DNA of 64,000 nt from Companilactobacillus heilongjiangensis (GTDB lineage Bacteria > Bacillota > Bacilli > Lactobacillales > Lactobacillaceae), in the NCBI RefSeq assembly GCF_000831645.3, contig NZ_CP012559.1, positions 806,001-870,000 of the forward strand. Direction: 5' to 3'. Position 1 is the stretch's first letter. Each line of letters starts with the position of its first letter. Positions 13,217 to 60,338 of the stretch are shown here, one piece after another. The notes under the pieces are model-generated. The model ran no database searches. It was not told the DNA's origin and saw only the letters and a program-made list of their open reading frames with translations. Made by a program: the position numbers and the translations under genes.

Positions 13217-13479
13217 CAAAAAAAGCCCTCTTCCAGCTAAGGAAAAGGGCTCAAATAGAACGGTACCACCTTTTTTGGGTATTCTAAGAATACTCACTTT
13301 ATTAACGGACAGTAATTAAATGATATCCGCTAGCCAAATAATGGTGGCAACCACGATAACCTACATATCGGCATCGAACTCAGAAATGATTTTCGAAATT
13401 CTCGCGACGGTCACTTTACACTAAACATGACTCACTAAGCGTACTTGAGATTTCTACTTTTTTCTTCAACGTTTTGTTG
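13217..13479 (-). promoter_or_regulatory. T-box riboswitch leader of brnQ (Ile specifier)
   Basis: Reading the minus strand, the T-box GGTGGTACCG is at 13261-13270. It is followed by a terminator hairpin AGCCCTTTTCC / GGAAGAGGGCT (13224-13251) and a T-run. In stem I, AGAAA (13451-13455) pairs with TTTCT (13382-13386), placing ATC (13388-13390) in the specifier position followed by A, as in the glyQS leader. ATC is an Ile codon, which fits BrnQ. The UGGU of the T-box can pair with a tRNA ending ACCA. The specifier was placed by eye. Confidence 0.85.
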
Positions 13480-26772: not shown

Positions 26773-26885
26773 CGTATAGCACAAGGTTCTAATTGATAAT
26801 TTATTACAAATATTTCATATTTTAAGGTTGTTTGAATATAAATAAATACATTTGAACACTCTTACTTTCAATTAATAACTATTAA

Positions 26886-27082
26886 TTAGTCGGAAGAGCT
26901 GGAAAATATTTGTGTGCCGTGGTAGTGGTATAAGTACGGAAGGAATCTTCCGTACTTATACCAACGGACGTGTTTGGAGACTTGACGAACTGTGTCAAGT
27001 CTTCAAACCGAGGTCCGAGACCGTCTTTTGGCTCGGACCGTTCCGCACAGCTTGAGAATATTTCCCAGCTCTGGAGACGGAA
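26886..27082 (-). repeat. Interspersed palindromic element, copy 8 (subtype A, reverse; GGGAAATATT subgroup)
   Basis: The third hairpin is enlarged to AGTACGGA / TCCGTACT around a short loop, with TGGTATAAG extensions. The outer stem AGCTGGGAAATATT is shared with copies 12 and 19. Sequence beyond the right end in element orientation (26800-26885 here) also resembles the flanks of those copies. It lies about 100 bp before the ABC exporter operon. Confidence 0.9.
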
Positions 27083-40933: not shown

Positions 40934-41116
40934 GCCGTTTCCAGAGCTGAGAGTATTCATCTGCTGCGCGGCACGACCCGAGCCAAAAAGCGGTCTCGAG
41001 TCTCGCTTGAAGCCTTTCCAAAAACCGGAAAGTCTCCAACACGTCCGGTGGTGTAATGGCTAAAGCCATAACGCCACTTTCGCTGCGGATGAATACTCTC
41101 AGTTCTTCCAACTAGT
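40934..41116 (+). repeat. Interspersed palindromic element, copy 10 (subtype A, forward); intact relative of the intron-split copy
   Basis: Outer arms CAGAGCTGAGAGTATTCATC and GATGAATACTCTCAGTTCT pair. Stem 2 is CTTTCC / GGAAAG and stem 3 is TGGCTAAAGCCA. Read in reverse it matches copy 15 closely and shows the uninterrupted junction GTGCCGCGCAGCAG where that copy holds the intron. Confidence 0.92.
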
Positions 41117-41160
41117 TAATTTTTTATTAGCGTTATTTCTAAAATAATTTAAAATAATCT

Positions 41161-49177: not shown

Positions 49178-49224
49178 AATGAATATAAGTATTGAAACTA
49201 TGGCGACGAAATAGTTTTGAATAC

Positions 49225-49266
49225 GAAAAAAGAGAGATACTTATGCATTCATAGGTATCTCTTTTT
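49225..49266 (+). terminator. Terminator of the PTS gene
   Basis: AAAAAGAGAGATACTTATG pairs with CATAGGTATCTCTTTTT. Confidence 0.87.
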
Positions 49267-49302
49267 AGTGGGATTGTTTATGATGAGAGTATTAAAGTTT
49301 TT

Positions 49303-49487
49303 GCCGTCTCCAGGACTGAGAACATTCACCTGCTATGCGGACCGGGTTCGAGCCGAAGTGCGGTCTCGAACCTCGATTTGAAGCCTTACCAAAGTTCGGT
49401 AAGTCTCCAAACTCGCCCGGTGGTGTAAGAGCTGAAGCTCTAACGCCACACCCACAGCTGGTGAATGTTCTCAGTCCTTCCGACTAG
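49303..49487 (+). repeat. Interspersed palindromic element, copy 14 (subtype A, forward)
   Basis: Outer arms CCAGGACTGAGAACATTCACC and GGTGAATGTTCTCAGTCCT pair. Inner stems AGCCTTACC / GGTAAG and AGAGCTGAAGCTCT are intact. It starts 37 bp behind a terminator. 49488-49709 shows nothing recognisable. Confidence 0.92.
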
Positions 49488-49857
49488 TGGATTTTAAGGA
49501 TAATTTACTATTTAAATGTTTCAAAGCTTTATCCTTTGATGGTTATGTTTATTCGGACTAGAAATCTAATTGTAGGTGTATATGGAGAAATTTTAGACTA
49601 ATACAATCCATGAAGGTTGATATGTACACATTGTGTGTGACTGCAGTTGTAATTTGTTCAATACAGCAGAATCGTTAATTTTATTAACCCCTCATATAAA
49701 AAAATAAATTAGTTGGAAGAGCTGAGAGTATTCATATTCAGCGAAAGTGGCGTTATGGCTTTAGCCATTACACCACCGGACGTGTTGGAGCCTTACCGAA
49801 CTTTGGTAAGGCTTCAACCGAGGACCGAGACCGCACTTTGGCTCGGGCCGTGCCGCG

Positions 49858-51743
49858 GTGCGCCTGGCATGGGCGTTAACTTAGAGGTGAAAGTCCTCTG
49901 TGAACCGTAGTAGTCGGAATCACTAGCTTAGGACAAGGGTGTCCATCGTGAGGTGGAATCTGAAGGAAGTCCAAGGCAAAGTACCGAGCTGATGTACAAG
50001 AAGTGGCTATAAGGCTGGATTTGCAGGATAAGGGTGCCGCGGAATTCAAATCCGATCACTACTGCAAGGGCAAATCAAGTAGAGCCAACAGCTACATGGT
50101 ACGAAAGTTAACGTTCTTACCCAGGGAGGTCTGTATCGAATGTCTGGCAAGGACTCGAAATGAGTCCTACAGACAAATTAGGCCGTGATGTCTAACTGAA
50201 CGATGCAGAAGTCAGCAGAGGTCATAGTAGTCGCTTTGCGACGAAGGACTGAACATTAATAATTCTTTTCGATATTGGAGGTGGAAGCGATGCGACAATC
50301 GCAGAAAATAGAATGTAAATTCGACCATTTTAATGCTCACATATGTGAACAAATGATGGTACGTAGCGCCGCTTCTGGCGAAAATACGAATAAGAATGGC
50401 ATTTCATTTAAGCAACTAGTTTTAGATGAAAATAATCTCAATAGAGCCTATAAGCGAGTCAAGGAAAACAAGGGTGGAGCTGGCATAGATGGAATGACTG
50501 TCTATGACTTGTTCGACTATATTCGTAAGAACAAGGAAGCACTACTTAAGTCCTTAAGTGATTCAACTTATAAACCTAGCCCCGTCAAAAGGGTAGAAAT
50601 ACCTAAGCCAAATGGGACTATGCGTAAGCTTGGTATACCAACAGTCTTCGACCGTGTGGTACAACAAGCAGTGGCGCAGGTTATGAGCCCTATCTTTGAG
50701 AAAATCTTCTCTAACAACAGCTTTGGATTTAGACCAAATCGAAGTGCCCATGACGCAGTAAAACAGGTTGTGAGTTTTTACAAGCAAGGCTATCACGTTG
50801 TGATAGACCTTGACCTAAAGTCTTACTTCGACACGGTGAACCATGATTTACTTATCAAGTTCATCAAGCAATATACTGATGATGAATGGTTGTTAAATCT
50901 AATTCGTAAGTTCCTAACCAGTGGCGTAATGGATGGAAAACTATTTCAAGAAATGGAAAAAGGTACGCCTCAAGGCGGTAACCTTTCTCCACTCTTGGCC
51001 AACATATATTTAAATGAGCTGGACAAGTTATTGACCACCCGTGGTCATAAATTCGTCCGCTACGCTGATGACTGTAATATTTATGTCAAAAGTAAACGAG
51101 CAGGAAGAAGAGTCCTGAATAGTATTTCAAGGTTCCTAGAAAGTGGTTTAAAGCTAACTTTAAACCAAGAAAAGACCAAAATTACAGTGCCAACAAAGTC
51201 AAAGTTTTTAGGATTCTCTTTAGGCTTTACCAACAAGGGCGTATGTTTACGCCCGAGCTATCAAGCCGAAAAGAGGGTCAAGCAATCGCTAAGAAAACTC
51301 ACAAAGAGGAATCGAGGTCGAAAGCTTGAAGTTATCCTGAAAGAAATAAGACAAAAGATGGTTGGATGGCTCAATTACTATGGAATTGGTGCGATGAAGG
51401 ATTTTATCAGAAAACTTGATTCTTGGTTGCGAGCACGTATTAGACAATATATTTGGAAGTCATGGAAAAGACCCAAAGCAAAGTATAGGAAGTTGGTTAA
51501 ATTAGGCGTGACACGGCGTCAAGCGTTTATCTGTGCAAACTCCAGTAAAGGATACTGGCGAACAGCGCACAGCAGTGTGGTGCAACACGCCCTAAGCAAG
51601 AAAAAGCTAGAATCTTTTGGCCTAATAGACATGACCAAAAGACTCCAGTCTTTGCAAAATGCTTAAATTAATGAACCGCCGTATACGGAACCGTACGTAC
51701 GGTGGTGTGAGAGGTCGGTATCGTGAGATACCTCCTACTCGAT
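49858..51743 (+). mobile_element. Group IIC intron with its reverse transcriptase gene
   Basis: The 1886-bp intron begins GTGCGCCTGGCATGGGCG and ends CTCCTACTCGAT, both as in group IIC introns such as that of Oceanobacillus. Domain V near 51675-51706 has CCGCCGTATACGG pairing with CCGTACGTACGGTGG and the CGC catalytic triad of class C, followed by a short domain VI. The domain I marker AGGTGAAAGTCC and GGAATCTGAAGGAAGTCC are also present. The maturase gene lies in domain IV. The site of insertion is next to the long stem of a palindromic element, fitting the class C preference for hairpins. The ends are fixed by the uninterrupted copy 10. Confidence 0.93.
50290..51666 (+). CDS. ltrA: Group II intron reverse transcriptase/maturase (class C)
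   Basis: The 458-residue protein has reverse transcriptase blocks including FGFRPNRSAHDAV, the active-site YADD (Tyr258-Asp261), TPQGGNLSPLLANIYLNELD and a C-terminal maturase (GIIM) domain with MVGWLNYYG. There is no HNH endonuclease domain, as expected for class C. It assists splicing of the surrounding intron and reverse transcribes it at new sites. ATG 50290 is chosen: GGAGG lies 8 bases before it, and the TTG at 50275 overlaps that site. The frame is intact, so the intron may still be active. Confidence 0.93.
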   Translation: MRQSQKIECKFDHFNAHICEQMMVRSAASGENTNKNGISFKQLVLDENNLNRAYKRVKENKGGAGIDGMTVYDLFDYIRKNKEALLKSLSDSTYKPSPVKRVEIPKPNGTMRKLGIPTVFDRVVQQAVAQVMSPIFEKIFSNNSFGFRPNRSAHDAVKQVVSFYKQGYHVVIDLDLKSYFDTVNHDLLIKFIKQYTDDEWLLNLIRKFLTSGVMDGKLFQEMEKGTPQGGNLSPLLANIYLNELDKLLTTRGHKFVRYADDCNIYVKSKRAGRRVLNSISRFLESGLKLTLNQEKTKITVPTKSKFLGFSLGFTNKGVCLRPSYQAEKRVKQSLRKLTKRNRGRKLEVILKEIRQKMVGWLNYYGIGAMKDFIRKLDSWLRARIRQYIWKSWKRPKAKYRKLVKLGVTRRQAFICANSSKGYWRTAHSSVVQHALSKKKLESFGLIDMTKRLQSLQNA

Positions 51744-51883
51744 CAGCAGATGAATACTCTCAGCTCTGGAAACGGCATCCTTGAACAGTACCGTATAAAT
51801 TGTTTAAGAATATTTTTATATTTATTTCATTTTAATTATTTATCGTATAATCAAAGTAAGTGTTTTATTCTGGAGGTAAATTA

Positions 51884-54048: not shown

Positions 54049-54233
54049 TTTAATATTATGAAAATATAGTTATAATTATGATTTTCAACCGACTAGGTGA
54101 AAATTATCTGCATATGTATTTGGAATTCTGTGTTTTTGGCATTTACCTAGGCATTGAAAAGTAATAACTCAGTATAAACGTTGTTACAGCAGGCATAACA
54201 GTTGCTTATTCAGTTGTTATCACAGAAACAAAC

Positions 54234-54299
54234 TAGTTGGAAGAGCTGAGAGTATTCATATGTCGTGCAGCAGATGAATACTCTCAGCTCTGGAGACGG
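54234..54299 (-). repeat. Interspersed palindromic element, copy 16 (minimal, outer stem only)
   Basis: GGAAGAGCTGAGAGTATTCAT and GATGAATACTCTCAGCTCT are joined by only 12 bases, and both end motifs (AGTTGGAAG and GGAGACGG) are kept. All three inner hairpins are deleted. 54049-54233 contains nothing else recognisable. Confidence 0.88.
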
Positions 54300-58725: not shown

Positions 58726-58758
58726 AATTAGGTTTATTATTGTCCAGAGTATAAAAAT

Positions 58759-58940
58759 AGGCGGAAGGAATGAGAATATTTACCCGCTGTGGGTGTGGCG
58801 TTAGAGCTTTAGCTCTTACACCACCGGGCGTGTTTGGAGACTTACCGGTTTTTGGTAAGGCTTCAAACCGAGGTTCGAGACCGAACTTTGGCTCGAGCCG
58901 GTCCGCATAGCAGATGAATATTCTCAGTCCTGGAGCTGGC
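58759..58940 (-). repeat. Interspersed palindromic element, copy 18 (subtype A, reverse)
   Basis: Outer arms GGAATGAGAATATTTACC and a partner with GAATATTCTCAGTCC pair with few mismatches. Stem 2 AGACTTACC / GGTAAGGCT and stem 3 AGAGCTTTAGCTCT are intact. The end reads GGAGCTGGC, a variant of GGAGACGGC. Confidence 0.9.
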
Positions 58941-59982: not shown

Positions 59983-60155
59983 AAATTAATTGTTATTAAT
60001 TGAATGTAAAAGTATTCAAATGTAGTTCCGTTCAATTAATTCATTGGCCATGAGATATTTGTAATAGGTTCTCGACTAACAACTGTGTATATGGTAATTA
60101 ATGCTAATGTATTGTTTTAGGACTTAAATAATCTATTTAATTATTTGCAATAAAT

Positions 60156-60338
60156 AAGTCGGAAGGACTGAGAACATTCACCCGCTGTGGGTGTGGCGTT
60201 ATGGCTTTAGCCATTACACCACCGGGCGTGTTTGGAGACTTACCGGTCTGTGGTAAGGCTTCAAACCGAGGTTCGAGACCGTACTGTGGCTCGGGCCGGT
60301 CCGCATAGCAGGTCAATGTTCTCAGTCCTGGAGACGGC
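60156..60338 (-). repeat. Interspersed palindromic element, copy 20 (subtype A, reverse)
   Basis: Outer arms GGACTGAGAACATTCACC and a partner with GAATGTTCTCAGTCC-type complement pair; stem 2 is AGACTTACC / GGTAAGGCT and stem 3 is TGGCTTTAGCCA. It lies 88 bp before the oxidoreductase start. 59983-60155 holds only the conserved flank of copy 19. Confidence 0.92.

Follow-up and report, generated by a model that had tools for sequence, protein, structure and literature searches.

What brings a mobile intron into the middle of a repeated palindrome, and is such a site selected or merely encountered? The question arises from a 64,000-nt stretch of Companilactobacillus heilongjiangensis DNA (contig NZ_CP012559.1, positions 806,001 to 870,000 of the forward strand; hereafter the window), in which one copy of an intergenic palindromic element is split by a complete group II intron (Table 1). 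We consider it highly probable that this intron is an active or recently active class C (group IIC) retroelement, and that it has specialised on a single subtype of a palindromic repeat which is multi-branched and abundant.

A sequence-only reading of the window had placed the intron ends at 49858 and 51743 by comparison with an intact element, copy 10. Read in reverse, copy 10 indeed carries GTGCCGCG^CAGCAGATGAATACTCTCAG without interruption (the caret marks the cut throughout). In the occupied element the 5' exon GTGCCGCG stops at 49857 and the intron starts with GTGCGCC at 49858, while the intron ends with CTCGAT at 51743 and the exon CAGCAGATGAATACTCTCAG picks up at 51744. These ends agree with the 3' end of the Rfam domain V/VI match and with the pairing of two intron-binding sites (IBS1 and IBS3) in the exons to two exon-binding sites (EBS1 and EBS3) in the intron. 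A spliced exon-exon product across 49857/51744 would read ...GTGCCGCGCAGCAG....

To which class does the intron belong? RF02001, RF01998 and RF00029 all exceed their Rfam gathering scores on the intron. Its open reading frame (ORF) encodes a group II reverse transcriptase (RT)/maturase (TIGR04416, 431.5 bits; Pfam RVT_1 and GIIM), and a Pfam search of the 458-aa protein found no HNH endonuclease domain. The nearest solved proteins by sequence are 6ar1 (the GsI-IIC RT, the best match) and then 7uim. The intron termini, GTGCG ... GAT, fit the class C consensus of 5' GUGYG and 3' AY (PMC7923331). Judged from its sequence, the intron belongs to class C in every feature tested: ribozyme domains, an intron-encoded protein without HNH domain, termini, a short EBS1-IBS1 pairing together with EBS3-IBS3, and a predicted hairpin upstream of the site.

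The genome (G000; one contig of 2,790,548 bases, in which all 33 first-look intron candidates were scored) contains six full copies of the intron at 100% identity (rounded). Five are identical and one differs at a single base, the ORF is open in all six, and the copies split three per strand. The sequence-only reading had proposed a survey for introns at the same junction in other elements; all six full copies are found at that junction, CCGCG^CA(G/A)CAGATGAATA (ATGAATATT in one copy), in six different elements. To describe the element, we searched with its profile a sample of 464 kb, consisting of the window and 20 further stretches, each 20 kb long and mostly spaced at 140-kb steps, one of which (1320001-1340000) was deliberately set on an intron copy. 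The profile covers 19,969 of the 464,000 sampled bases, and the probability that six of six introns lie inside elements by chance is P ~6e-9, a value that leaves the exact common junction out of account.

Between any two of the six introns there are 0-1 differences in 1886 positions, against 5-32 per 150 positions between their host 5' half-elements, and the outer flanks show no relationship (47-56% in global alignment). With near-identical introns in such dissimilar surroundings, the six insertions look like separate events that struck elements after these had diverged, and five identical copies with one single change suggest a recent spread. Could the intron have inserted only once and then been copied together with its element, either as the element moved or through gene conversion among its copies? 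Elements do seem to be gained or lost at loci, since their number differs between genomes at the PTS-acetyltransferase spacer (49178-51859; L221-L226): no profile hit was found there in G022, G006, G020 and G023, a partial element is present in G034, one element in G011, and two elements plus the intron here. (The G011 spacer was also considered as an empty ortholog of the interrupted element, element 15, and was rejected because its single element has the other orientation, so that element 15 is absent there.) In addition, the 5' half-elements of L003 and L004 are near-identical, with 5 differences in 150 (96.7% shared), which makes this pair a possible exception to separate insertion. On the other hand, the other 14 of the 15 pairs have half-elements with 12-32 differences per 150 against the 0-1 of 1886 in the introns, whereas half-elements copied together with the intron should resemble one another about as closely as the introns do. 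Furthermore, a sister intron occupies a different subtype with matching EBS1 and EBS3. We consider it unlikely that a single insertion followed by joint copying accounts for the six copies.

How large is the supply of such sites? The profile search of the sample gave 128 merged hits, 97 of them long, that make up 4.30% of the sequence; a split or occupied element may be counted twice among the 128. By simple proportion, the genome would hold ~770 elements. All 19 elements listed for the window lie clear of any ORF of at least 120 aa. An alignment of 29 of the 77 full-length copies (taken from the 30 best-scoring) gave a predicted fold with a long closing stem and three inner hairpins, with both-side changes in 28 of 65 predicted pairs. 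The insertion junction lies between columns 165 and 166, 8 columns past the third inner hairpin (H3). Because columns 164-166 also pair with the opposite arm in the predicted fold, the letters flanking the cut belong to the covarying fold of the element itself. By these letters the 128 hits fall into subtypes A (CCGCG^CARCA, 8), B (CCGCA^TAGC, 18), C (CCGCA^CAGCT, 21) and D (CCNCA^Y, 23), and the remaining 58 are other, truncated or occupied. Subtype A, the only one in which the full intron was found, is thus a minority (8 unoccupied among the 128 sampled hits). In the whole genome we found 36 exact unoccupied subtype A sites, and 109 matches at up to 3 mismatches to the subtype A pattern, among which are some subtype B or 3' junctions of occupied elements; the reversed control gave 0.

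The H3 core (up to 1 mismatch) occurs 441 times in this genome. It was found at least once in 29 of the 301 family genomes drawn (7 of 40 genera) and is absent from most of them; the reversed pattern was found once each in three. In some species of three other genera (g15, g20 and g38), the H3 core is repeated 17-162 times. A plasmid search with the element gave no match. A dedicated Y1 transposase flanked by the repeat, as expected of a REP/RAYT-type repeat, was considered as the driver of the element: two Y1_Tnp genes are present in the genome, and none of four short exact element-end motifs was found within ~1.5 kb of either, so that no link to the element was seen.

If the intron is specialised on subtype A, its RNA should carry a matching code. 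In the solved class C complex (E.r. IIC), a C precedes EBS1, four pairs plus one are formed, and EBS3 lies in the coordination loop (PMC10190682), and the EBS1/EBS3 layout of the present intron agrees with that structure. The EBS3 candidate is G in both C-exon introns used (this intron and L127) and A in 11 of 11 T-exon introns; L007 was set aside from the C-exon group in this comparison. Over 20 introns (22 less L149 and L151, which are copies of the L145 family, with L001-L006 taken as one), EBS1 and IBS1 covary with 63 of 80 Watson-Crick matches, while shuffled pairings had a mean of 30.2 and a maximum of 50, and 0 of 20,000 reached the observed value.

The same genome provides a second intron for comparison. 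The ORF-less relative L008/L009 (G000:C1:2161198-2161920, plus strand, 723 nt; 85% identity in the first part) holds all three Rfam domain matches and is a sister of the full intron with a support of 0.998 (FastTree, 5' 420 nt). It is inserted in a subtype B element, CCGCA^T, and has the EBS1 TGCG(C) and A at the EBS3 candidate. As read from their sequences, the two sisters in this genome are each keyed to a subtype of their own, and these subtypes differ at the bases flanking the cut. L008 might be mobilised by the protein of the full intron. A further relative, L007 (74%; G000:C1:1842036-1843901, minus strand), has a terminator-type 5' exon, ..CTTTTTGT, with which its EBS1 ACAAC pairs 4 of 4; its 3' exon consists of the right half of an element resembling subtype C. 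L007 is probably a rearrangement between intron copies; its identity along the intron peaks at the 5' start and near domain V, and this profile gave no locatable breakpoint. L010/L011 is a decayed intron fragment.

Is the code needed at all, or are the elements merely terminator-like, with the intron landing behind any strong hairpin and the EBS1-IBS1 matches incidental? Class C introns have been described as needing a hairpin and just 3-4 base pairs (PMC7923331), and the hairpin geometry is alike at element and terminator junctions: in 40 of 41 folded junctions, 4-10 nt separate the end of the predicted hairpin from the cut. (The script forced the final four bases of the exon to stay unpaired, and RNA energy parameters were used; L152 was left out and L042 stands for L123.) The element site, however, has no T run, and the EBS1 of the full intron forms 0-2 of 4 pairs with the terminator-type IBS1s in our table against 4 of 4 with its own. 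Moreover, 0 of the 6 full copies lie behind a terminator, and the hits are limited to the minority subtype A. An intron without specialisation is, of the explanations we weighed, the one to which we give the least credence. The sequence-only reading had also suggested that class C introns favour sites after stable hairpins and that the repeat family may be a standing reservoir of targets. The repeat family as a supply of targets is supported; the hairpin alone is insufficient and a matching EBS code is also needed, as the full intron is found only in subtype A and other repeat-carrying genera show terminator-like sites (by eye).

To see whether related genomes have introns in the same element family, we examined a genus set of 36 genomes including G000, of which 13 have intron matches and 11 provide a total of 35 readable 5' junctions. 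These 35 are rows beginning at intron base 1, each place counted once, with later starts and draft 3'-only fragments excluded; outside G000, 8 candidates per genome were scored, so that copy numbers there are lower bounds. Of the 35 junctions, 26 lie in one of two repeat profiles. The present element accounts for 16 in five genomes (G000 7, G011 2, G012 3, G015 3 and G023 1), and 14 of these 16 end at profile position 154-157. Thus, the expectation that other elements would be hit in related genomes is borne out in G011, G015, G012 and G023. L127 (G023) and L134 (G012) lie on the opposite strand of the element with profile ends at 41 and 65; by eye, they follow the first hairpin and roughly mirror the usual site. 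A second, unrelated multi-branched repeat holds 10 of the 35 junctions, in two other species (G007 6 and G035 4). The introns concerned are L145, L136, L150-L153, L155, L131, L135 and L144; their 5' exons end in ..ATTTGG, and the 3' exons are CGGCTGAGGGC in G035. The other 9 junctions are in neither profile, and by eye eight are a hairpin with a T run and one (L129) is a hairpin without a clear T run. The repeats are also abundant in these genomes: in G011, 405 sites match the subtype A pattern with at most 3 mismatches (reversed control 0), and 40-44 repeat matches, some of them short, were obtained in G007, G035, G015 and G023 from 56 to 354 first-look candidates. Matches in G012 are weaker (best E 5e-21), with a query taken from G023.

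Outside the genus, a different picture was found. In a set of named species (80 loci; sites read in 11, L042-L050, L055 and L117, 8 of them with a 5' exon), L042 is the genus locus L123 (48 of 48 tested 100-mers shared), which leaves 7 junctions, and all 7 are terminator-like by eye. Among 14 repeat-carrying genomes outside the genus, 4 have an intron match, and 7 of 7 junctions are again terminator-like by eye. Two same-flank pairs (L227/L043 and L231/L044) reduce these 14 junctions to at most 12 distinct ones. The terminator sites in repeat-carrying genomes indicate that the presence of the repeat is insufficient. A plasmid search with the intron gave 501 records, and the matches listed have 67.3-67.7% identity and come from lactobacilli and pediococci. 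In a tree of the 5' RNA, element-inserted introns appear in three places (the G000 pair, G012 and G023), although some nodes are weak; the fragments from G007, G035, G015 and G011 were too short to be placed. Related introns apparently switched in the same manner more than once within the genus.

On which strand and on which molecule would the intron act? Sampled GC skew flips its sign between 1.14 and 1.26 Mb and again between 2.54 and 2.66 Mb. With respect to these points, the sense strand runs with the fork in six of six full copies, which places it on the lagging-strand template. Of the exact empty sites, 16 are co-oriented and 18 anti-oriented (n=34, hand count; 2 of the 36, near the origin, were omitted), giving a one-sided Fisher P of 0.019. 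Priming at the replication fork has been described for endonuclease-less introns (PMC4424553, PMC7161350), and the orientation bias agrees with such priming but does not prove it. It may be argued that the target is instead the element folded as RNA; the intron would then reverse-splice into transcripts of the element and re-enter DNA through reverse transcription and recombination. A single strand of the element does fold strongly, and the hairpin would be equally exposed in RNA. Yet the opposite-strand insertions in G023 and G012 would demand that either strand be transcribed, the six copies show a weak bias with respect to replication direction, and a published class C structure has the intron poised on a stem-loop of target DNA (PMC10190682). 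An RNA target seems to us very unlikely.

We propose that the intron RNA-maturase particle would recognise single-stranded DNA in which H3 of the element is folded. EBS1 (CGCGG) would pair with the CCGCG just past the hairpin and EBS3 (G) with the next C, and reverse splicing would then take place between CCGCG and C. Because the protein has no endonuclease domain, cDNA would be primed from a strand of the replication fork, with the lagging-strand template as the putative site of insertion. With hundreds of copies of the element between genes, an intron that matches it would have many sites at its disposal, probably harmless ones. A lineage would shift from terminators, which were presumably the earlier sites, to a subtype of the repeat through changes in EBS1 and EBS3.

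Several observations weigh against this proposal. The bases flanking the cut are paired in the full predicted fold, so that the target is probably an only partly folded element, and the occupied site L005 folds with a different minimum-energy hairpin that lies 16 nt from the cut. One of the six copies (L003/L004) may have spread by gene conversion. The 20 introns in the pairing test are related, and the shuffle test thus overstates their independence; in addition, five terminator-type introns (L047, L049, L117, L124 and L128) pair at just 2 of 4 positions with the exon. L007 combines a terminator 5' exon with an element 3' exon, and the C of the latter faces A at the EBS3 candidate. Columns 217 and 306 likewise separate C-exon from T-exon introns, though less cleanly and with mixed bases on the T side, so that the EBS3 assignment rests partly on the published layout. 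Finally, the orientation evidence is thin, as P rises to 0.071 when the anti-oriented ORF-less intron is counted.

Table 1. Intron, interrupted element and other element copies in the window, numbered from the first letter of the window.
Feature	Coordinates	Strand	Remarks
5' part of interrupted element, subtype A	49701..49857	+	
Third inner hairpin (H3) of interrupted element	49822..49849	+	immediately upstream of insertion site
IBS1 CCGCG	49853..49857	+	final five bases of 5' exon
Complete group II intron, assigned to class C (IIC)	49858..51743	+	1886 nt
Domain I-IV, Rfam group-II-D1D4-3	49942..50115	+	134.4 bits
EBS1 CGCGG	50038..50042	+	domain I hairpin loop, after conserved TGC; 5 of 5 pairs with IBS1
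EBS3 candidate G	50082..50082	+	intron position 225; faces exon +1 C
Domain I-IV, Rfam group-II-D1D4-1	50174..50249	+	63.9 bits
RT/maturase ORF	50290..51666	+	458 aa; ATG; GGAGG upstream; YADD present
Domain V/VI, Rfam Intron_gpII	51674..51743	+	50.1 bits; last base is the proposed 3' splice site
3' part of interrupted element	51744..51776	+	C at 51744 is IBS3
Copy 10, intact unoccupied subtype A element	40934..41125	-	empty junction between 40967 and 40966
Neighbouring subtype B element, unoccupied	49303..49495	-	CCGCA^TAGCAG
Subtype B element, unoccupied	58752..58940	+	
Subtype B element, unoccupied	60149..60338	+	
Subtype C element, unoccupied	26879..27080	+	CCGCA^CAGCTT
Solo-stem copy	54226..54299	+	closing stem without the three inner hairpins; TCGTG^CAGCAG

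Apart from these features, the window has a T-box leader at 13242-13478 on the minus strand (93.3 bits against an Rfam gathering score of 93).

A wider idea may be formulated, for which we see the chances as evenly balanced. Intergenic palindromic repeats could offer class C introns a general niche in addition to terminators and attC, and several Companilactobacillus lineages would have switched to such repeats independently via about four bases of EBS1 and one of EBS3. Compensatory changes in the repeat, such as CCGCG^C to CCGCA^T, would then create subtypes that are each answered by a matching intron, in a lock-and-key chase. Regardless, the sister introns keyed to two subtypes make a change of class C specificity directly testable, and it can be asked whether shape (the hairpin) and sequence (EBS1/EBS3) can change separately. 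This question also bears on the use of IIC introns as targeting tools.

How does the present intron compare with known systems? Like the class C introns at intrinsic terminators (B.h.I1 and others, PMC4424553), it has an upstream hairpin, a short EBS1-IBS1 pairing, an EBS3-IBS3 pairing and no endonuclease domain, and its close relatives remain at terminator-like sites as class C terminator introns do. Unlike in terminator introns, the insertion site has no T run and is a junction within a multi-branched palindrome of many copies, and EBS1 and EBS3 match it. The group IIC-attC introns of integrons (PMC7923331) are similarly a branch of class C that has specialised on a folded DNA site which is repeated and imperfectly palindromic, but the present repeat is intergenic and genome-wide in some lactobacilli, and its IBS1 is CCGCG or CCGCA, not TTGT. 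Membership of the IIC-attC subclass (TTGT^T) was rejected, without a formal attC search, because the intron is found at CCGCG^C and in an intergenic repeat that extends over the genome. In Pseudomonas putida KT2440, 2 of 9 copies of a group II intron lie in REP sequences (PMC1525189), which likewise associates group II introns with intergenic palindromic repeats. There, the accessible REP table is silent on recognition sequences, whereas here 6 of 6 full copies lie in the repeat, EBS1 and EBS3 match it, and parallel cases occur in further species. The introns of Thermosynechococcus elongatus (PMC2882425) resemble the present case in that EBS divergence opens new targets and other mobile elements supply sites; they are CL/IIB1 introns that recognise IBS1, 2 and 3, while the class C intron here uses a hairpin, IBS1 and IBS3. 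In our search for class C introns in intergenic repeats, which mostly did not extend to subscription papers, the P. putida REP entry was the only one found, and the accessible parts of the Dolosigranulum, S. mitis and B. cereus intron papers describe no such repeat sites. The present intron is a natural case of a fourth kind, which occurs in several genomes and has terminator-site relatives in the same genus. Its novelty lies in the target, a genome-wide intergenic palindrome that is matched by subtype and was apparently reached more than once within the genus.

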